DNA of 36,004 bases from Candidatus Gastranaerophilales bacterium. GTDB lineage: Bacteria; Cyanobacteriota; Vampirovibrionia; Gastranaerophilales; Gastranaerophilaceae. The position numbers and the translations under genes are program-made. Below, piece by piece: positions 1-9,016 of this stretch (positions within the stretch are counted from its first letter, which is position 1; every line of letters begins with the position of its first letter). The DNA lies in the NCBI GenBank assembly GCA_944324475.1, contig CALUWK010000017.1, positions 1 through 36,004 on the forward strand. Reading direction: 5' to 3'. The notes below the pieces were generated by a model, which had not been told where the DNA came from, made no database searches, and saw nothing but the letters and a program-made list of their open reading frames with translations.

Positions 1-876
1 AGAACTAGAACCTGCAGAAGACCATTTTCCTGCAGCGCAATATTTACAACTTGATTTACCTGTTTCATTTTGATATTCGCCAGCAGAACAGTCTTTACAA
101 CCTGTTTGTCCTATTTGATTTTGATAAGTTCCTGTTGAACAATTATTACAACTTGACTTACCCACTTTATTTTGATAAGTTCCTGTTGGACACTGGGTAT
201 AATTACTAGCTCCTTCTGTATCAACATAAGAACCTTTTGGAGCATCTTTACAACTTGTTTTACCTGTTTGATTTTGATATTCGCCTTTTGAACAATTTAT
301 ACAACTATCTTTTCCTGTTTGATTTTGATAAGTTCCTGTCGGACAATTTATACAACTATCTTTTCCTGTTTGATTTTGATAAGTTCCTGTCGGACAATTT
401 TTACAACTTGTCTTACCAGTCTCATTTTGATATTGACCCGTCGGACATGCTATACATTCTGTTGTACCATCAGAATAATATCCTTTTTGACATAATTCAC
501 ATTTACCATTACTTGTTAAACCATATCCTGCTTCACATCTTGTACAATCTTTAGCATTACATCTTATACATTTTTCGTGTCTATCTGTGCAAGGTTCACA
601 AAAACATGTCCCTATATTTTCATATTCATTTTCTTGACATTCTTTAGCACAAATTAAACATTTATTTGCATAACACAAACTGCAATCATCCGAAAACTTT
701 TTACAATCAGGTTTTACCATTGATGATGATACAACTGTGCTATTACTTTTCATTTTTTTAGTAATCACAGGAGCAAAAGCTCCTGTAATACAACTTATTG
801 TGATTAAACTAATCATCAGTTCGATTAGGCTAAAAGCTCCAAAAATTACAGAAAATTTAATTATTTTAATCTTCAT
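1..876 (-). CDS. Pilin-like surface protein with Cys-rich ephrin-receptor-like repeats (3' end beyond window)
   Basis: The frame is open from ATG at 876 to the left edge (292 codons visible), so the C-terminus is missing. The N-terminus reads MKIKIIKFSVIFGAFSLIEL, a class III (type IV pilin) signal: FSLIE has Glu at +5 and cleavage is expected after Ala, followed by a hydrophobic helix to about residue 36. Residues 57-140 hold many Cys pairs in a furin/VSP-like spacing (for example CIRC, CTRC, GYGLTSNGKCELC). From residue 144 there are eight 17-residue units of the type CPTGTYQNQTGKDSCIN, resembling the GCC2/GCC3 ephrin-receptor-like family (Pfam PF07699). One unit (243-193) has lost both Cys. 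The protein is probably exported and surface-exposed, built on a pilin-type anchor. The ribosome binding site is weak. Family assignment is from motif memory; the ligand or role is unknown. Confidence 0.8.
   Translation of the reverse strand, partial: MKIKIIKFSVIFGAFSLIELMISLITISCITGAFAPVITKKMKSNSTVVSSSMVKPDCKKFSDDCSLCYANKCLICAKECQENEYENIGTCFCEPCTDRHEKCIRCNAKDCTRCEAGYGLTSNGKCELCQKGYYSDGTTECIACPTGQYQNETGKTSCKNCPTGTYQNQTGKDSCINCPTGTYQNQTGKDSCINCSKGEYQNQTGKTSCKDAPKGSYVDTEGASNYTQCPTGTYQNKVGKSSCNNCSTGTYQNQIGQTGCKDCSAGEYQNETGKSSCKYCAAGKWSSAGSSS
40..447 (-). repeat. Eight in-frame 51-bp coding repeats
   Basis: Eight consecutive 51-bp units encode 17-residue Cys-rich repeats. On the minus strand the units start at 447, 396, 345, 294, 243, 192, 141 and 90, and a ninth begins at 39. 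The units starting at 396 and 345 encode the same peptide and are nearly identical in DNA. The period is a multiple of three, so gain or loss of units keeps the frame. Confidence 0.9.
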
Positions 877-960: not shown

Positions 961-1023
961 ATTACCAACTTAACACTTATCATTATACACATTTTGGTAA
1001 AAAAGTCAACACATATTGGTAAT
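961..1023. promoter_or_regulatory. Repeated TTGGTAA motif, candidate XRE operator
   Basis: The motif occurs as ATTACCAA (961-968, inverted), TTGGTAA (994-1000) and ATTGGTAAT (1015-1023). The middle copy lies in the spacer of the minus-strand pilin promoter, the left one near its start point, and the right one just upstream of the divergent XRE gene. This layout would suit a shared operator bound by the adjacent regulator. That is inference; only the repeats are seen. Confidence 0.4.
982..1009 (-). promoter_or_regulatory. Sigma-70-like promoter for the pilin-like gene
   Basis: On the minus strand TTGACT (1009-1004), a 16-nt spacer and TATAAT (987-982) form a near-consensus promoter. Transcription would start near 975, giving a leader of about 100 nt before the ATG at 876. 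Confidence 0.7.
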
Positions 1024-1055: not shown

Positions 1056-1364
1056 ATGTACGGTAAAAAACTTCAAGAAATAAGAAAGAAACTTAATTTA
1101 TCACAAGAAGAATTTGCCACACAAACAAATATCACATATCGTGCATATACCAGTTATGAAAGAGGGGACAGAAAACCGTCTTTTGAATTTTTAGAAAAAC
1201 TTGTTATAAAATTTCATGTAAATCTAAATTGGCTTATCGCAAACACAGGCGAGCCCTTTGGAGAAGTTAACAATAAAGACAAAAATCTTAAAAAAGAAAT
1301 TTTATTTGAAGTTAAACAAATGTTAATAAAAGAAGGTATAGTAAAAAATTTTACTCAACCGTAA
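1056..1364 (+). CDS. XRE/Cro-family transcriptional regulator
   Basis: This 102-residue protein has an N-terminal HTH_3 domain (about residues 4-65) with the typical pattern LSQEEFATQTNI, followed by SYERGDRKPS and LNWLIANTGEPF. The C-terminal tail is short, charged and probably helical. It is expected to bind DNA as a dimer. The ATG at 1056 is preceded by GGAG at about 1046. It diverges from the pilin-like gene, so it may control that gene and itself through the TTGGTAA repeats. Its last 14 bp overlap the 3' end of the convergent glmS gene. The family is clear; the target is inferred. Confidence 0.85.
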   Translation: MYGKKLQEIRKKLNLSQEEFATQTNITYRAYTSYERGDRKPSFEFLEKLVIKFHVNLNWLIANTGEPFGEVNNKDKNLKKEILFEVKQMLIKEGIVKNFTQP

Positions 1365-3201
1365 CTGATTTAGCCAAATTTCTAGGTTGATCAACATCTT
1401 TTCCCAAATATTCAGCTATATAATAAGCTAAAAGTTGCAGCACAACTATATTAACTGCAGGACTTATTAAATCACTTCCTGATGGTACAGTTATTATATC
1501 GTCAAACAAATTAACATCTTTATCTGCGATATAATTTGTTACTGCAATTAATTTAGCTTGCCTTGCTCTTGCCTCCTCGCAATTCGAAAGAACCTTATCA
1601 TAAACAATGCCTGTATTTAAAATTGCAAGAACGGGCATATTTTCATCCAACATTGCTATTGGCCCATGTTTTAATTCTCCCGCACCATATCCCGTAGCAT
1701 TAATATAGCTTATTTCTTTTAATTTTAATGCTCCTTCGAGCGCAGAAGGATAATTTATACCTCTTGCAATAAATATAAAATCCTTATAACTTGCATATTT
1801 TTTTGCTACTTTTTGTACATTTAAAGCATTTTCGAGCAAAGCTTCAATTTTGCTAGGAAGTTCTATTAATTCTTGTTTTAAAACTTTAACTTCATCTGTA
1901 ACTGAGCTTATACCAAACTTTTGCTCCATTAAATATATTGAAAGCAAATATAAACTTATTAACTGCGCCATATAAGACTTTGTAGCAGCTACAGAAACTT
2001 CAATTCCAGCATTAACAGGCAATAAACTGTCTGCCAAACGTGCCATTGTTGAATCAGCCCTATTGGTAATTATTACTATATGAGATTTTTTTTCTTTTAC
2101 CTGTTTTATAGCCGTTATTGTATCTGCTGTTTCTCCTGATTGTGAAATACCTATAACAAGGGTATTTTCATCAGCTATTGTTTCTCTGTATATATATTCA
2201 CTTGATGGTTCAACATCAACTGGAATTTTAGCAAATTTTTCAATAATATATTTACCAACCATTCCTGCATGAAGGCTTGTTCCACAAGCAATAATCTGTA
2301 CTCTTGCAATTTTATTTATTTCAGAAGGCGTTAATTTAAATTCCTCTAACTTTATTTCATTATTAATACCTAAAAGCTTACCTGACAATACATTTCTTAC
2401 AACATCACTTTGTTCATGAATTTCTTTCAACATAAAATGCTTATATCCCATCTTGGATATTGCAACAGCTTCAAAAGGCAAATATTCAACTTTATTTACA
2501 ATTAATTTATCATTTTTATCAAATATTTGAATACTATCCTTTTCCACAACTCCTACTTCATCATCTGATAAATATATTGCCTTTTTAGTATATTCAATTA
2601 TTGCAGGGATATCAGAAGCTATAAAATTTTCACCTTCCCCAAGACCAATAACCAAGGGAGCATTTCTTTTTGCTACCACAATTTTATCTGGCTCTAATTT
2701 ATGGATTGCACAAAATGCAAATGCACCTTTTATTAATTTAACTGCAGATTGCATTGCCTCTAAAAGATTTTTTGTTCTGCCATATTCCCTTGCAATTAAA
2801 TGAGCTGCAACTTCAGTATCTGTTTGAGATTGAAATATACAACCTTCTTTTTGTAAAATCTCTTTTAATTCTTGATAATTTTCAATTATGCCATTGTGCA
2901 CCAGAGTCAAATTTTTACAATTACATGTATGAGGATGAGCATTTATAGTTGTGGGAAGCCCATGAGTTGCCCATCTTATGTGCCCTATGCCAATATGAGA
3001 AATATCGCATATATCTTTTTTTGTTTTCAAAACTTCAATTAAATTAACCAATTTTCCTTGAGCTTTATATATATCAACAATATTTTCATGCATTAAAGCA
3101 ACACCGGATGAATCATATCCACGATACTCAAGATGTGAAAGCCCTGAAATTAAAACTTCACTAGCTTTTCTATTGCCTATATATCCGATTATTCCGCACA
3201 T
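1351..3201 (-). CDS. glmS: Glutamine--fructose-6-phosphate aminotransferase (isomerizing)
   Basis: GlmS makes glucosamine-6-phosphate from fructose-6-phosphate and glutamine, the first step to UDP-GlcNAc for peptidoglycan and LPS. The 616 residues match the family length. The start MCGIIGYIG exposes Cys2, the glutaminase nucleophile. The glutaminase domain spans about 1-220 (HIRWATHG, HNGIIENY). Two SIS sugar-isomerase domains follow, at about 300-430 (ACGTSLHAG, SQSGETADT) and 470-600. The C-terminus DQPRNLAKSVTVE is the typical GlmS ending. TTGGAG upstream of the ATG is the ribosome binding site. It is divergent from mtaB. No glmS ribozyme fits in the roughly 56-nt leader. Confidence 0.98.
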   Translation of the reverse strand: MCGIIGYIGNRKASEVLISGLSHLEYRGYDSSGVALMHENIVDIYKAQGKLVNLIEVLKTKKDICDISHIGIGHIRWATHGLPTTINAHPHTCNCKNLTLVHNGIIENYQELKEILQKEGCIFQSQTDTEVAAHLIAREYGRTKNLLEAMQSAVKLIKGAFAFCAIHKLEPDKIVVAKRNAPLVIGLGEGENFIASDIPAIIEYTKKAIYLSDDEVGVVEKDSIQIFDKNDKLIVNKVEYLPFEAVAISKMGYKHFMLKEIHEQSDVVRNVLSGKLLGINNEIKLEEFKLTPSEINKIARVQIIACGTSLHAGMVGKYIIEKFAKIPVDVEPSSEYIYRETIADENTLVIGISQSGETADTITAIKQVKEKKSHIVIITNRADSTMARLADSLLPVNAGIEVSVAATKSYMAQLISLYLLSIYLMEQKFGISSVTDEVKVLKQELIELPSKIEALLENALNVQKVAKKYASYKDFIFIARGINYPSALEGALKLKEISYINATGYGAGELKHGPIAMLDENMPVLAILNTGIVYDKVLSNCEEARARQAKLIAVTNYIADKDVNLFDDIITVPSGSDLISPAVNIVVLQLLAYYIAEYLGKDVDQPRNLAKSVTVE

Positions 3202-3263
3202 ATTTACTCCAATTTGTTCTATTTCGTTATTTTAATACATAGAATTTTTTGTTGCAAATTAAG

Positions 3264-3292
3264 ATTATATAAAGTACACCAAGTCTTTTCAA
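3264..3292 (-). promoter_or_regulatory. Promoter of glmS
   Basis: TTGAAA (3292-3287), a 17-nt spacer and TATAAT (3269-3264) on the minus strand give a strong sigma-70-like promoter with a leader of about 56 nt. Confidence 0.75.
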
Positions 3293-3304
3293 TAACAATA
3301 ATTA

Positions 3305-3333
3305 TTGAGTCAAAAAAACTCGTATGTTAAAAT
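3305..3333 (+). promoter_or_regulatory. Promoter of mtaB with the -10 box 6 nt from the start codon
   Basis: TTGAGT (3305-3310), a 17-nt spacer and TAAAAT (3328-3333) are followed by only six bases before the ATG at 3340. Transcription would start at or next to the ATG, implying a leaderless mRNA. No Shine-Dalgarno sequence precedes the gene. Confidence 0.6.
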
Positions 3334-3339
3334 CTCTTT

Positions 3340-4608
3340 ATGAAAACATTTTACATAAAATCTCTTGGATGCAAACAAAATCAACTTGAAGGACAAATTA
3401 TTCAAAATGAACTCGAAAAACTCGGCTTTAAAGCATCAAAACTAGAAAAAGCCGACATTTATATTTTAAATTCTTGTACAGTAACCTCTCACAGCGATTC
3501 ACAAGCTAAATATTTACTTAATTATGCAAAAAGAAAAAATCCAAATATAAAAACCATTCTTGCAGGTTGCATTGCTCAAACATACAAACAACATAAAAAT
3601 TTTAATTTTTCAGATATTGACTTAATATTGGGAAATGAAGAAAAAATAGATATTGAAAAATATATAAACAAACTATTTGAAAATGAAAACACATTTTTTG
3701 TTGAAAATATTTTTAAACAAAAAAAATTCAAAAATAAATACTTAATTAATCCAAAATCTACAAGAGTAAGCGTTAAAATTCAAGATGGCTGCAATAATCG
3801 GTGTTCATACTGTATAATTCCTTATGCAAGAGGTAATTCACGTTCTAATTCTATTGAAAATATACTTTTTCAAATTAATTTAATTATTCAAAAAGGCATA
3901 AAAGAAATAGTTTTAACAGGAATTCACATAGGTCAGTGGGGAAATGAATATAATAAAACACTATTAGATTTATTAAAAGAAATTGAAAAAACCGAAATTT
4001 GTCGCTACCGCCTTGGTTCATTATATATCGATGAAATAAATGACAATATGATTAATTTTTTAAAAAAATCCAAAAAATTTTGTCCACACTTTCATCTTTC
4101 TTTACAATCTTTGTCAAATTCAACTTTAAAACGCATGAATAGGCGCTATAATGCTCATGAAGCAATGATTTTAATTGAAAAACTGCATAAAAATTTTGAT
4201 TTGCCTTATCTTGGATGTGATATTATAGTTGGTTTTCCTGATGAAACAAACGAAGAATTCCAAGAAACATATAATAATTTAAAAAAAGCAAAATTATCTT
4301 CAATTCATTGTTTTCCATACTCCAAAAGAGAAAACACTCCTGCTTACTTTATGAAAAATCAAATTCAAAATAATATTAAAACAGAAAGGACAAAATTAAT
4401 CCTAGAATTGTCAGAAAAATTGCACAAAGAATTTTTAAACAAAAACAAAAATAAAAAAGCAGAAATTTTAATTGAAAAAAAATCACCTAAAACGGGTTTA
4501 TATAGCGCTGTCACAAGAAATTATATAAAAATTTATATAAAAGATAATCTAAATAATTTACAACACACTATAAAAAATGTTAATTTAAATGAATTTGAGT
4601 TAATGTAA
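3340..4608 (+). CDS. mtaB: tRNA threonylcarbamoyladenosine methylthiotransferase, MtaB type
   Basis: This is a radical-SAM methylthiotransferase of 422 residues. The N-terminal UPF0004 domain carries Cys11, Cys46 and Cys77 (SLGCKQNQLEG, NSCTVT, AGCIAQ) for the auxiliary 4Fe-4S cluster. The radical-SAM motif DGCNNRCSYCIIPYARG gives Cys151, Cys155 and Cys158. LTGIHIGQWG, VGFPDET and the HCFPYSKRENTPA segment favour MtaB (2-methylthio on t6A37 of ANN-reading tRNAs) over MiaB or RimO. A basic C-terminal TRAM-like tail follows. It is monocistronic by position, divergent from glmS and apparently leaderless. MiaB is the main alternative. Confidence 0.87.
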   Translation: MKTFYIKSLGCKQNQLEGQIIQNELEKLGFKASKLEKADIYILNSCTVTSHSDSQAKYLLNYAKRKNPNIKTILAGCIAQTYKQHKNFNFSDIDLILGNEEKIDIEKYINKLFENENTFFVENIFKQKKFKNKYLINPKSTRVSVKIQDGCNNRCSYCIIPYARGNSRSNSIENILFQINLIIQKGIKEIVLTGIHIGQWGNEYNKTLLDLLKEIEKTEICRYRLGSLYIDEINDNMINFLKKSKKFCPHFHLSLQSLSNSTLKRMNRRYNAHEAMILIEKLHKNFDLPYLGCDIIVGFPDETNEEFQETYNNLKKAKLSSIHCFPYSKRENTPAYFMKNQIQNNIKTERTKLILELSEKLHKEFLNKNKNKKAEILIEKKSPKTGLYSAVTRNYIKIYIKDNLNNLQHTIKNVNLNEFELM

Positions 4609-4691
4609 ACAAATGTAACAAAAATATATATTTTTGATATATTCAATCACTTTTTGTTTTTATTAATATATAAATAAAAAGGTAAAACATT

Positions 4692-4898
4692 ATGGATAGC
4701 CGTACTAGCTCAATTTTAATTAATTTAGATTTAAATTTAAACTCAGGTATAATCGCAGACCAATACAGCTTATCAAAAGCAAAAATTGAAAAAACCTCAA
4801 AAGGCGATAAACAAAAAGTTTATAAGAATCTAAAACAAACTTTAAAAGAATGCTATTTAACAGGTTCTTTAAAGTATGGTAACAATTTTGTGATGTAA
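4692..4898 (+). CDS. Small protein of unknown function
   Basis: This is a 68-residue ORF starting MDSRTSSILINLDLNLNSG, with a Lys-rich middle (about residues 29-50) that looks helical. No signal peptide, membrane segment or known domain is visible. AAAAAGGT lies upstream of the ATG as a ribosome binding site. It ends one base before the convergent YvyF-like gene. The ribosome binding site and tight packing support it being real; its function is unknown. Confidence 0.6.
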   Translation: MDSRTSSILINLDLNLNSGIIADQYSLSKAKIEKTSKGDKQKVYKNLKQTLKECYLTGSLKYGNNFVM

Positions 4899-4899
4899 A

Positions 4900-5382
4900 T
4901 TACAAATCATAATTTTGAATAAAACCATATCTTGTATCATTATCTGCGGTATTTATACCACCCCTTAAGCGCCTATTTATATTTCGGGCTTCTTCTTCGT
5001 ATTTTCTTATATTTATGCCTTTTTTTTCAAGTTCTGTTACTTTTGGAGAAAACCGCATTAAACATTTCTTACAAGTAAAGCCTGTTTTTTCATCATCCTC
5101 AAGCTCCACACCACAAAATCTACATTTTATAAGAATCTTAGGTAAAACAGTAAACAACCTTCCTCTTGAAATTAAATCCTCAAGATCATTTTTTGAAACA
5201 CTACATGCCTGAATAATATCCTCAAGAGGCACTTTATCCTTTCCTGTTGAAATAACAAAATTTCTAATAGAGTCAATTAACTCCAACTCTTTTTTAAAAC
5301 ATTCTTCACAAACGTCTCTGCCTGAATTCTTAAAAAACAGCGTTCCGCACTTTTTACAATTTATTAATCCATCTCTTGCCAT
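4900..5382 (-). CDS. YvyF-like flagellar-associated zinc-ribbon protein
   Basis: The 160-residue protein has a first zinc ribbon with Cys9, Cys12, Cys25 and Cys28, a helix-turn-helix-like middle (DIIQACSVSKNDLEDLISRG), RGRLFTVLP, and a second ribbon with Cys87, Cys90, Cys104 and Cys107. A charged C-terminal tail follows. This order matches the flagellar operon protein family known from Bacillus YvyF (TIGR03826), where it sits with flagellar genes. A flagellar operon lies 4 kb away here, in keeping with that. Its biochemical role is not established. The start codon follows a -10 box by 7 nt with no ribosome binding site. Resemblance was judged by eye. Confidence 0.65.
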   Translation of the reverse strand: MARDGLINCKKCGTLFFKNSGRDVCEECFKKELELIDSIRNFVISTGKDKVPLEDIIQACSVSKNDLEDLISRGRLFTVLPKILIKCRFCGVELEDDEKTGFTCKKCLMRFSPKVTELEKKGINIRKYEEEARNINRRLRGGINTADNDTRYGFIQNYDL

Positions 5383-5389
5383 ATAATTA

Positions 5390-5417
5390 ATTTTAGCAAT
5401 TTTAAATAAAAAATCAA
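5390..5417 (-). promoter_or_regulatory. Promoter of the YvyF-like gene, candidate leaderless start
   Basis: On the minus strand TTGATT (5417-5412), a 16-nt spacer and TAAAAT (5395-5390) are followed by seven bases and the ATG at 5382. No Shine-Dalgarno sequence is present. Confidence 0.6.
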
Positions 5418-5444
5418 ATAAAAATACTGTTTTAAATAAAATAC

Positions 5445-5473
5445 TTGTATAAATTATAATTTTTATATAAAAT
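5445..5473 (+). promoter_or_regulatory. Possible promoter for the 5577 gene
   Basis: TTGTAT (5445-5450), a 17-nt spacer and TAAAAT (5468-5473) fit a promoter that leaves a leader of roughly 95 nt. The region is very AT-rich, so chance matches are possible. Confidence 0.35.
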
Positions 5474-5576
5474 AATGTTATTAAATATCTAATAGTGAGA
5501 GTGTATTTGAAATATTGCCTATTAAGTTAATTTCATTAAGTGATGGGAATAATAAAATAATAGAAAGATTATTTTA

Positions 5577-6326
5577 ATGTATACGAACAAGTGTATTAAA
5601 TGTGGTAAAGAATTCGAAACTAAAAACCCCAAGAGGGTTATTTGTCCTGACTGTTTATATCCAGAAAGGCTAACAGAATCATCTGCTCCTACAGACGAAA
5701 ATGGTGTAGTGCAAGATTATTCAAGAGGCTACAGTGCAGGTTCGGGAAATCCAGAAGGGTATGCAAGAAAGTACAACAATCGCCCTCAAAATAATCAAAA
5801 CTACAATAAACCAAAAAACAATTCTTTTCAAAGACGTGATAACAATTTCAGACGTCCTCAAAAACCGAATCAAAAAAATAACTTTAGACGTCCTCAAAAA
5901 CCAAACAAGCAAAGACCTTTATTAATAAATAAAGAGCAACTCGCACAAATTGAAGAAATGTACAAAAAAATGTTACCCCTTCCAAATCCAGATGCACATG
6001 AAGTTATTGCTCAAGCTATAGATTTAGAACCTAAAAAAGTCTTTTTTGGAATTAATTTAATCAGACAAAAAATGATGTTACCGAAAGTTCAATTCCCAAA
6101 AAGAAAACTTGCAATTACTCCAGACCAAATGATGGCAATTAAAAATCTTTATGAGCCATTGTTGCCTTTACCTCCAATCGGATGCCATAAAATTCTTGCA
6201 GCACAATTAAAAATGGATGAATGGAGAGTTCACGTCGGAATAGGACTTGTTAGGAAACAACTGGGACTTGACAGATGGAACCAAGACAGGGAAGATTGTC
6301 CCGAAGAATTCAAGAAAAAAGCTTAA
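5577..6326 (+). CDS. Zinc-ribbon protein with basic Asn/Arg/Gln-rich linker and a duplicated C-terminal domain
   Basis: The 249-residue protein has three parts. Residues 1-30 are a zinc ribbon (Cys6, Cys9, Cys23, Cys26). Residues 50-114 are a low-complexity linker rich in Asn, Arg, Gln and Pro, containing NNFRRPQKPNQK twice in tandem. Residues 115-169 and 178-233 are two copies of the same domain of about 55 residues, aligned through QIEEMYKKMLPLPNPDAHEV / AIKNLYEPLLPLPPIGCHKI and then GINLIRQKMMLP / GIGLVRKQLGLD. The repeated domain looks like a small helical fold of HTH type. The basic, disordered linker recalls RNA-binding proteins. I do not recognise the family. A nucleic-acid-binding role is inferred. 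Confidence 0.75.
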   Translation: MYTNKCIKCGKEFETKNPKRVICPDCLYPERLTESSAPTDENGVVQDYSRGYSAGSGNPEGYARKYNNRPQNNQNYNKPKNNSFQRRDNNFRRPQKPNQKNNFRRPQKPNKQRPLLINKEQLAQIEEMYKKMLPLPNPDAHEVIAQAIDLEPKKVFFGINLIRQKMMLPKVQFPKRKLAITPDQMMAIKNLYEPLLPLPPIGCHKILAAQLKMDEWRVHVGIGLVRKQLGLDRWNQDREDCPEEFKKKA

Positions 6327-6418
6327 TAATATTACAATTTGTAACAAAATTTAATTTTTCTCTAATTTTTTGTTAGAAAATGTCGATACCTTTAATAACG
6401 AGAAAGGTGTGCATATTA

Positions 6419-6727
6419 ATGAAAAATGAAAAATTAACATTGGAGGAAAGTAGATTAGCCAATATTTTAAGAGATGAAATCCTCAAAAATTCAGAAAATT
6501 TGGTCAAAGTACCCGAAAAAAAATCAGATTTATCAAAATTTGAATTAATTTCAGAAAATAAACAACCGTACATATCTCCCATTTTTTCGATGAATGAAGA
6601 AGAAATTTTAAACTTTGTGGAAGAATTTGAGGTTTCTGAATTGGCAACATTATCTGTCGCCGAATTAAACAGAATTGGTGAAGTTTTAGGTGTGGATCCT
6701 AAAATTTTGGTCGAAGGAGAGGATTGA
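6419..6727 (+). CDS. Small acidic protein of unknown function
   Basis: The start at 6419 is chosen because GAGAAAGGTG precedes it; an in-frame ATG at 6380 lacks a ribosome binding site. The 102-residue product is rich in Glu and Lys. It has a helical N-terminus (KLTLEESRLANILRDEIL) and a C-terminal helix pair (ATLSVAELNRIGEVLGVDPK) that resembles a helix-hairpin or HTH-like element. No signal peptide or membrane segment is seen. It lies in the same direction as the 5577 gene with a gap of about 90 bp. Function unknown. Confidence 0.65.
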   Translation: MKNEKLTLEESRLANILRDEILKNSENLVKVPEKKSDLSKFELISENKQPYISPIFSMNEEEILNFVEEFEVSELATLSVAELNRIGEVLGVDPKILVEGED

Positions 6728-6735
6728 TTGGATTA

Positions 6736-7110
6736 TTAAGCTAATTCAATTAATTCAATCGAATTACCATCGGGGTCAAGCAAGAAAGCAATTCTTGTCT
6801 TGACCTCTTTCATATAAAAAGGCTCTACTTCCCATTTATAACCTAGTTTTTTCATTTTTTCATCTATTTCATCAAGATTTTCACATAAAAATGCAAAATG
6901 CCCGAAAGCATCGCCTACTGTATATTTTTCAGGAATTTTATCATTAATTGTAAGTTCTATCTCAAATCCTGTTTTTTCATCTATTAAATATTGCAAAAAA
7001 CAATCCTCTAAACGAATTCTTCTACCTTTTTTAAAACCTAAAAGTTCACAATAAAATTTAACTGACTTTTCTTCATCTTTAACCCTTATCATTGAGTGTA
7101 AAAATTGCAT
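6736..7110 (-). CDS. Glyoxalase I-like VOC-family protein
   Basis: This 124-residue single-unit vicinal-oxygen-chelate protein aligns by eye with E. coli GloA, which converts the methylglyoxal-glutathione adduct to lactoylglutathione. The four metal ligands are in place: His5 (FLHSMIRV), Glu52 (IELT), His71 (AFGHFAF) and Glu119 (GNSIELIEL). LDPDG before the last ligand is also typical. The ribosome binding site is AAGGAG, and the gene sits 9 bp after gmhA as the last gene of a four-gene operon. The thiol cofactor in this organism is unknown, so the substrate is unproven. Confidence 0.75.
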   Translation of the reverse strand: MQFLHSMIRVKDEEKSVKFYCELLGFKKGRRIRLEDCFLQYLIDEKTGFEIELTINDKIPEKYTVGDAFGHFAFLCENLDEIDEKMKKLGYKWEVEPFYMKEVKTRIAFLLDPDGNSIELIELA

Positions 7111-7119
7111 AATATCTCC

Positions 7120-7659
7120 TTAAAAATTATTTTCTACATTTTTACAAATAATATGTCCTATTACAATATGCATTTCTTGTATTTGTTCAGTTTTATAGTT
7201 TGGTACATTAATTTCGCAATTTACATTTAAATTTGTCTTATCTTTTCCTGTTAACAAAATAACCTTCATTTTTTGTTTTTTTGCCTGTTTGATGGCTTCT
7301 ATAACATTTTTACTTTTAGCACTTGTTGAAATAGCAAAAAGTACATCATTTTTTTTCCCTAATCCTTCAATTTGTCTTTTAAAAACATAATCAAAAGAAA
7401 AATCATTTGCAATAGCTGTTATAACAGAATTATTAGCACACAATGAAATTGCAGGCAAAGATTCTCTATCCTTTTTAAACCTTGAAATAAATTCACAAGC
7501 CAAATGATTGCTATCGCTTGCAGAACCGCCATTCCCACAAAAAAGAATTTTATTATTATTCTTAAACGCTTCAATCAAAATTAAAGAAGCCTGCTTTATA
7601 CTTTCAATTTCATTTTTTAAAAGCTTTAAATTTTCAATTCTCTCTTCAATTTCTTTCAT
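7120..7659 (-). CDS. gmhA: Sedoheptulose-7-phosphate isomerase (phosphoheptose isomerase)
   Basis: GmhA makes D-glycero-D-manno-heptose 7-phosphate, the first step of heptose synthesis for LPS core or other glycans. The start at 7659 (MKEIEERIEN) follows AAGGTG; an open frame extends upstream to 7752 but lies inside the preceding gene. The 179-residue SIS-fold protein has CGNGGSASDSNHLACEF with His52 and Glu56, and IQEMHIVIGH with Gln161 and His169, matching the zinc/active-site set of E. coli GmhA (His61, Glu65, Gln172, His180). It overlaps the methyltransferase stop by 14 bp. DiaA-like proteins lack this set, which argues for GmhA. Confidence 0.85.
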   Translation of the reverse strand: MKEIEERIENLKLLKNEIESIKQASLILIEAFKNNNKILFCGNGGSASDSNHLACEFISRFKKDRESLPAISLCANNSVITAIANDFSFDYVFKRQIEGLGKKNDVLFAISTSAKSKNVIEAIKQAKKQKMKVILLTGKDKTNLNVNCEINVPNYKTEQIQEMHIVIGHIICKNVENNF

Positions 7660-9016
7660 TTCGTTCACCTTTTTTAAATAAAATAACTGTTTCAATATGA
7701 TAAGTATAAGGAAAAAGATCAACCCCTTGAATAAATTCAGGTTCAAATTCAAAATTTCTTATTATCTCCATGTCCCTTTTAAGAGTAATCGGATTGCAAG
7801 ATACATAAATAATATTTTTTGAAATTTTTACTATATCCTCAAGACTTTCTTTGTCACAACCACTTCTTGGCGGATCTAAAATTGTATAATCAAAAATTTT
7901 ATTCTCATTCCTAAAAATTTTAAATTGTTTTTTAGCATCATTACTAAATATTTCATAATTTTTTATACAATTTAATTCATAATTTTCCTTTGCCATTTGA
8001 GTAGCATTTTGATTTTCTTCAACAAGAACTATTTTTTTAGCTTTATTACCCGCAAATATTCCAATAGCACCAACCCCACCATATGCATCCAAGATAGTTG
8101 AATTTTCTTTTATATTTTCCTTTACAACATTAAACAATTCAAAAGCAGAATAAGGATTAACCTGAAAAAAACTAACTGCGCCAATTTTAAAAATTTTATC
8201 TCCCAATTTCTGCAAAATAAAATCTTCGCCTAAAATTTTAATCGTTTTTTCTCCTAAAATACTATTAGTATTTTTTTCATTGAAATTAACGAAAAACCCC
8301 TTTATATTTTTAAATTCTTCAGATATTTTTCTAGCAAAATCTAATACATCATTTTTATATAATTTAAATTTTTTTTCGTTAATATTCAAAACAAAAGTTA
8401 AAATAATTGAATTATCAGATGAACTTATTCTGGCTATAACATTTTTTAAAAGTCCATTTTGTTTTTTTTCATCATAACAATCAAATATATTATTATTTCG
8501 AATAAAATCAGCTATTTTATTCATTATTTGAGGGTGCATACAACAAAATTTTATATTTGTAATTTCATGAGAATTTTCTTTAAAATAACCAATTAACACC
8601 CTTTTTGAATTTTTAGTCTGCCTTACAGGAAATTGAACCTTATGTCTATATTCCTTTGTTTTAGAACTTTTTATTATAGGTAAAATTATACCTTTTTCAT
8701 TTTTAAAAATATCTTTTAAAATTTCTTCCTTTAATTTAATTGAATAATTATAATCACAAATTTGCATCTGACAACTACCACAGGCATTATACAAAGCGCA
8801 AAATGGCTTAATTCTTTTATCTGAAGGTTCTACTATCTCAACAATTTGACCTCTTGCGAAATGCTTATTTATGGAAATAATTTTAATTTTAATTTTCTCA
8901 TCAGGAAGACTATTTTTAACAAAAATTACAAACTTTTTCTCCCCAAAACGACATAAACCCTCGCCAGTCGGAGTTATTTTTTCTATGTCGACTATAATTT
9001 CATCATTTATTTTCAA
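7646..9016 (-). CDS. 23S rRNA (uracil-5-)-methyltransferase, RlmD/RlmCD type
   Basis: This SAM-dependent m5U methyltransferase of 456 residues starts at TTG 9016, directly at the TRAM domain (ITPTGEGLCRFG). Cys73, Cys79 and Cys82 (FCALYNACGSCQ) plus Cys158 or Cys159 fit the 4Fe-4S site of RumA-family enzymes. The SAM motif is ILDAYGGVGAIGIFA, with Gly where many relatives have Cys (YCGVG). TILDPPRSGCDKE and YVSCNPITLKRDM give the catalytic Asp-Pro-Pro-Arg and nucleophilic Cys motifs. The stop of the upstream gene overlaps the start (TTGA), suggesting translational coupling. Which uridine (747, 1939 or both) is modified cannot be told. Confidence 0.87.
   Translation of the reverse strand: MKINDEIIVDIEKITPTGEGLCRFGEKKFVIFVKNSLPDEKIKIKIISINKHFARGQIVEIVEPSDKRIKPFCALYNACGSCQMQICDYNYSIKLKEEILKDIFKNEKGIILPIIKSSKTKEYRHKVQFPVRQTKNSKRVLIGYFKENSHEITNIKFCCMHPQIMNKIADFIRNNNIFDCYDEKKQNGLLKNVIARISSSDNSIILTFVLNINEKKFKLYKNDVLDFARKISEEFKNIKGFFVNFNEKNTNSILGEKTIKILGEDFILQKLGDKIFKIGAVSFFQVNPYSAFELFNVVKENIKENSTILDAYGGVGAIGIFAGNKAKKIVLVEENQNATQMAKENYELNCIKNYEIFSNDAKKQFKIFRNENKIFDYTILDPPRSGCDKESLEDIVKISKNIIYVSCNPITLKRDMEIIRNFEFEPEFIQGVDLFPYTYHIETVILFKKGERNERN

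Follow-up and report, generated by a model that had tools for sequence, protein, structure and literature searches.

The window, that is the whole stretch of 36,004 nucleotides analysed here, spans all of contig G000:C17. A frame of 292 amino acids runs on its minus strand from position 876 to position 1 and is free of stops to base 1 in the ORF translation, in agreement with the first-pass annotation, which had described a frame open to the window edge. Because the window covers the entire contig, the truncation of the gene is due to the contig edge. A gene for an XRE regulator lies divergent from this prepilin gene at a distance of 179 bases. The features of the region are the following.

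1 to 876, minus strand: 5' part (292 aa) of the gene for a putative prepilin-anchored Cys-rich protein, with its 3' end past the contig edge
835 to 876, minus strand: class III leader, residues 1-14, with Ala at −1 (sequence and family census)
772 to 834, minus strand: prepilin hydrophobic helix, residues 15-35, reading FSLIE... from +1 (sequence, Pfam and paralogues)
490 to 705, minus strand: Cys-rich segment, residues 58-129, with CxxC pairs (in Pfam only PF23091 overlaps, at 114-147)
1 to 480, minus strand: 17-residue GCC2/GCC3 (Ephrin_rec_like) repeats, residues 133-292 (Pfam and TRF)
1 to 77, no strand assigned: 77 bases identical to G000:C46:8072-8148, in a near-identical paralogue (sequence match)
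982 to 1009, minus strand: candidate sigma70-like promoter of the prepilin gene, TTGACT-16-TATAAT, 11/12 (site scan; a weak call alone, since the region has 3 such sites and shuffled sequence 2.2)
962 to 1022, no strand assigned: operator-like repeats, TTACCAA at 962-968 and TTGGTAA at 994-1000 and 1016-1022 (repeat search)
1056 to 1364, plus strand: divergent Cro/CI-type (XRE) regulator (HTH_3, E 1.3e-14)

The leader of the window protein is short and basic (14 residues), with Ala at −1, Phe at +1 and Glu at +5 preceding a hydrophobic stretch, so that all the elements of a class III prepilin (basic leader, G or A at −1, F+1, E+5 and helix) were found in the sequence. The Pfam model PF07963 (N_methyl) scored the window copy below its cut-off (13.7 bits versus 21.2, E 0.048). 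The cut-off was passed by six paralogues with the common N-terminus in the same genome (C1:42827, C14, C26, C32, C48 and C52), and several same-genus relatives also exceeded it. In a census of 35 family ORFs, the −1 residue was A in 30, G in 4 and K in 1, with E+5 being present by construction because the ORFs were picked by FSxxE. A prepilin peptidase (Peptidase_A24) was found in the same genome in a 338-aa frame at C21:24429-24761. The class III signal and hydrophobic helix proposed in the first-pass annotation are thus present by sequence in the 5' part of the window gene, and other family members retain the prepilin site.

Beyond the helix, PF07699 matched the window protein in 5 stretches (E 3.6e-28, 97.5 bits versus a cut-off of 23.1) and PF23091 (TNFR_ELAPOR1, TNFR-like) matched it at E 2.6e-9; both matches are beyond chance. 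A tandem array of 51 bp (17 codons) in 7.7 copies was resolved by TRF at window positions 38-432. The ephrin-receptor-like 17-residue repeats named by the first-pass annotation were hence recovered together with the GCC2/GCC3-type Pfam match that they imply, whereas its label of a "furin/VSP-like" Cys region gained no support, no such Pfam family being found at E ≤ 1 and PF23091 being the only match there. The closest solved protein was the mastigoneme-like Mst1, which forms filaments (E 9.6e-29 for the whole protein, with the best stretch at residues 141-263), and this similarity helped the idea that the repeats may build a rod. Single-sequence structure prediction of the window protein reached a mean pLDDT of 48.9 and a pTM of 0.29 and the model was discarded; with confidence this low, a disulfide ladder was not demonstrated. 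The earlier interpretation is therefore supported in part: the repeats, the prepilin site and the Peptidase_A24 gene agree with it, the Mst1 similarity favors a rod, and contact of such a protein with host cells or other microbes is what we infer.

The window gene belongs to a large family. Searching its own assembly (G000; 1.72 Mb in 64 contigs, 97.4% complete) with the window protein returned 17 matches in about 13 dispersed places, with C36 and C46 counted once because their ends share 53 identical bases in an overlap. Ten contig ends (C1, C17, C26, C27, C31, C33, C36, C40, C46 and C48) lie inside family genes, indicating that the repeats probably broke the assembly and that draft genomes probably understate both the number of copies and their full lengths. 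Relatives of the window protein occur in 27 of 28 same-genus genomes, with a maximum of 39 matches in one, and the complete ones join a common anchor and Cys stalk to differing heads (Lcl_C, Gly_rich_2 or unnamed), with tails of 450-1088 aa across the family. The Cys repeats were also matched by 4 loci in Alphaproteobacteria or proteobacterium records. Three of these loci (L150, L151 and L153), which would encode secreted proteins, were rejected as prepilin relatives, because their frames start, by eye, with Sec-like leaders and have no prepilin helices, so that they share the repeats only; no frame was obtained for L152, which was left out of the leader reading. These results are suggestive of a repeat stalk that has been combined with different anchors in evolution.

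Most long paralogues of the own genome terminate in Lcl_C (PF07603, DUF1566) modules. All four long paralogues scanned contained the domain (E 1e-13 to 1e-28), and 27 complete modules were located on 9 frames with 2-4 per frame, the maximum being four in one complete polypeptide. Pfam found no Lcl_C in the visible 292 aa of the window gene, the 3' end of which is off the contig. The near-identical paralogue C36/C46, which is 97% identical to the window protein over residues 39-211, continues (L056, G000:C46 7112-8680) from the repeats through a Ser-Gly repeat linker into a Cys-containing C-terminal domain of ~85 residues without a Pfam match, and thus ends without Lcl_C. By analogy with this paralogue, the window gene probably encodes a stalk with a non-Lcl head. 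It is about as likely as not that the window gene encodes a static Cys-rich stalk outside diversification, the relatives of which happen to have the same anchor and repeats. The end of C36/C46 favors such a reading, as do the genus relatives L122, L123, L127 and L128, which have these repeats and gave no match to Lcl_C at E ≤ 0.01; of these, L123 terminates in Gly_rich_2. Against it stands the 739-aa protein of C1:42800, a single chain in which this N-terminus and PF07699 repeats occur together with two Lcl_C heads.

The Lcl_C heads carry a distinctive pattern of variation. A first list of 21 modules was reduced to 19 after C46_3369 and C12_13834 had been dropped as false, and 12 entered a codon alignment; all 27 own modules were used in the later alignment, pairwise and entropy analyses. 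Over the last ~70 codons of the 12 aligned modules, codon positions 1 and 2 were variable and position 3 was often a fixed pyrimidine. When the 27 modules were aligned with the template repeat (TR) of a diversity-generating retroelement (DGR) in the same-genus genome G017, their first two codon positions had an entropy of 1.42 bits where the TR has A (56 sites), compared with 0.74 for G, 0.79 for C and 0.55 for T (p 1.2e-12). This adenine effect disappeared when the TR was displaced by 1-3 codons in either direction (p > 0.09 in all six shifts), and A sites were no different at third codon positions, where there are only 4 such sites. Of the 318 bases that precede the variable region, modules C1_83716 and C27_15941 share 317; within that region their identity is 75.3% over 219 bases, with 14 of the 54 mismatches falling at third positions. 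The same adenine bias was seen in the modules of G019 (n = 11, p 1.7e-7), which also has no RT match, and in those of G017 (p 1e-4; 15 rows including 2 duplicates, 13 distinct), with a weak bias in G027 (n = 10, p 0.016). Some heads of G017 recur almost unchanged in G027, indicating that not all heads are being rewritten and that static ones exist. By their sequence pattern, the Lcl_C variable regions of the own genome appear to bear adenine-derived DGR variation.

An RT adjoining an Avd-like ORF was found in 7 of the 28 genus genomes (G002, G007, G009, G017, G021, G022 and G026), the Avd matches (E 3.9e-15 and 5.2e-10) being below the NCBIfam cut-off. Candidate TR/VR repeats were present in five of these seven, and none was seen in G021 and G026, where RT and Avd are present. 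Mismatches between TR and VR fell at A of the TR in 24 of 26 cases for G017 (p 1.8e-13), 19 of 20 for G002 (p 7.7e-12) and 6 of 7 for G009 (p 1.3e-3, the repeat being cut by a contig end), with a weak result of 20 of 45 for G007 (p 0.01). The VR of G002 lies inside a 531-aa ORF with a prepilin signal above the Pfam cut-off, and the 450-aa target in G022 joins prepilin and PF07699 to an end that is Lcl-like by eye. Thus, a DGR comprising RT, Avd and an A-specific TR/VR pair is present in the same-genus genomes G017, G002 and G009. An intergenic repeat in G022 (L154) was rejected as a clean TR, with only 1 of 16 mismatches at A. Of the 16 mismatches between the target and this repeat, which neighbours the RT at L154 (G022:C3) 6818-7030, 12 fall where the repeat has T. 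The repeat may therefore have been mutated itself, the genuine TR being located at another place. Two tandem TR-like copies, 87.7% alike over 381 bases, lie beside the DGR RT at L157 (G009:C12) 6825-7639, and the nearer, less Asn-rich copy is perhaps a decayed or alternative template.

Within the own assembly (97.4% complete), no RT was found by HMM or by DGR-RT protein search, and no TR was found, so the cassette is missing from the draft, has been lost, or acts from an unbinned element. Two candidates for a TR were rejected: C40:1-109 proved to be the last part of an Lcl_C gene, closed by a stop codon, and the C33/C27 matches are located in long open frames. A DGR-type RT was likewise not found in 4 of the 7 genus genomes with at least 10 Lcl_C matches (G000, G001, G019 and G027). 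Across the taxonomic family, an RT match was obtained in 24 of 191 genomes at E ≤ 1e-100 and in 37 of 191 at E ≤ 0.001. A phage-borne RT was also considered and rejected, only two distant viral-contig matches (25% and 23% identity) being found. The lack of RT and TR in the own assembly would fit an origin of the variable Lcl_C codons in ordinary positive selection and paralogue recombination, without any DGR, and so would the occurrence of third-position differences, which make up 10,116 of 29,204 pairwise mismatches in the own variable regions. However, the first two codon positions vary chiefly where the TR of another species has A, the module pair that is nearly identical upstream diverges in the variable region, and the genus possesses DGR cassettes with A-specific TR/VR pairs. 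Selection and recombination acting on their own are thus a very improbable source of this variation.

The divergent XRE gene of the window is a recurrent companion of the family. A model seeded with ten neighbours of family genes (8 own and 2 from G022) identified 10 ORFs in the own stretches examined, and all ten were divergent to a family gene and matched HTH_3; two of them (C48 and C36) were blind, the family gene counted for C36 being a 5' fragment. The model had no further match elsewhere in these stretches, which is a rough control only, because most of them had been chosen for their family or pilin genes and the training set consisted of such neighbours. The upstream sequence was examined for 12 family genes of the own genome whose 5' end is known. 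A divergent XRE gene lies beside 10 of them (on contigs C1, C14, C17, C26, C31, C36, C48 and C52) and was absent upstream of C12:10051 and C32, a second C12 gene being left out of this count since its start is unclear. At genus loci, 16 of 25 distinct genes possess such a neighbour (14 of 23 blind, without the L154 model seeds); this count was 17 of 26 rows before L145 and L154:8955 were recognized as one gene, and it omits three genes with less than 600 bp upstream. The own regulators share a mean identity of 29% (maximum 46%), versus 75% for the pilin helices. We infer that each family gene may be under private repression.

Taken together, we consider it fairly probable that the product of the window gene is a large surface protein resembling type IV prepilins and belonging to a family of adhesin stalks, of which some carry DGR-diversified heads and which are perhaps singly regulated. 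A PilD-type prepilin peptidase would cleave the leader, leaving the helix to anchor the protein in the inner membrane or at the pilus tip, with the disulfide-bonded Cys repeats forming a rod or stalk that would hold the C-terminal head outside the cell. Possible binding partners of the head are other microbes, mucus and host glycans. In some family members, DGR retrohoming would keep rewriting the Lcl_C heads, and the own regulator of each copy may choose which stalk is displayed. The multigene family, the DGR-diversified Lcl_C heads on sister proteins and the divergent XRE regulators form a larger picture than the first-pass annotation had in view. A more far-reaching version, in which tens of dispersed, multi-headed, prepilin-anchored, lectin-like proteins in each genome would constitute a surface-receptor repertoire, diversified by a DGR that serves many targets in trans and switched singly by private Cro/CI-type repressors in the manner of variant surface antigens, is in our estimate unlikely.

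Somewhat less likely again is a structural protein without adhesin function, in which the helix would serve only as an inner-membrane anchor or pseudopilin and the rod would be periplasmic. Tails of up to 1088 aa are hard to fit in a pilus shaft, and the search of the pilus machinery covered Peptidase_A24 alone (found), both of which leave room for a periplasmic rod. By contrast, the diversified CLec-type heads of the sister proteins make most sense if exposed, and the C-type lectin-like Lcl_C of Legionella Lcl binds host glycosaminoglycans, according to the available part of PMC11162425. Should the exposed adhesin stalk be the right reading, an uncultured lineage about which little is known, with a genome of 1.7 Mb, would maintain many surface stalks whose heads are hypervariable, some chains bearing four diversified heads and most stalks having their own regulator. 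A eukaryote-like Cys-repeat stalk would here be placed on a bacterial pilin anchor. The lineage would also provide a natural, testable system for asking which purpose DGR diversity serves in free bacteria, be it the recognition of glycans, hosts or partners, and how one cell chooses among many adhesins.

Several known systems share parts of this architecture. Type IV minor pilins and pseudopilin-anchored adhesins have the same class III signal, F+1, E+5 and hydrophobic helix, but the present proteins differ from the minor pilins in their tails of several hundred residues with eukaryote-like Cys repeats and lectin-like heads. We know of no prepilin helix or Lcl_C in Mst1 or in other GCC2/GCC3 proteins. 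These proteins, including Mst1 (PDB 8tx1), resemble the window protein in the type of Cys repeat, and Mst1 differs in being eukaryotic. Type V pilins are exported as lipoproteins, in contrast to the type IV prepilin-like N-terminus found here. In Bacteroides, DGRs target the pilins at the tip of type V pili (Macadangdang et al., as cited in PMC12632263); like the present family, these proteins are pilus-linked, DGR-diversified and from gut bacteria. DUF1566 is given as the commonest DGR target domain in excerpts of PMC6642488 and PMC4159848, of which the latter places it first among the DGR targets of the human microbiome and the former mentions 'putative pilin structures' for DGR-linked proteins. 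With such DGR DUF1566/Lcl_C variable proteins the family has in common the C-terminal variable region, NNY codons, A-specific TR/VR pairs and, in the same-genus cassettes, RT and Avd; it differs from them in having up to four heads per complete polypeptide, a prepilin anchor, a GCC2/GCC3-type stalk, a large dispersed repertoire and divergent XRE regulators. Legionella Lcl likewise has the Lcl_C domain, on a collagen stalk instead of a Cys-rich one, and the available portion of PMC11162425 mentions no DGR. Among the papers listed in our literature search, none joined DGRs with Melainabacteria, and a term search of the accessible text of PMC8144416 and PMC7517822 gave no mention of pilin or Melainabacteria. 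DUF1566 DGR targets and pilin links are known in print, and the combination seen here appears to be new.

Two further observations were made in the own genome. Contig C40 carries ATP synthase genes in the order a, c, b', b, alpha, gamma, without beta, the identities being assigned by eye. Such a gene order looks cyanobacterial and, taken together with flagellar genes and a small AT-rich genome, would point to Gastranaerophilales (Melainabacteria). Further prepilin-like genes are clustered at L064 (G000:C24) 2502-8689; one of them encodes 1007 aa, some have glycine-rich tails, and the cluster is possibly the core minor-pilin operon.
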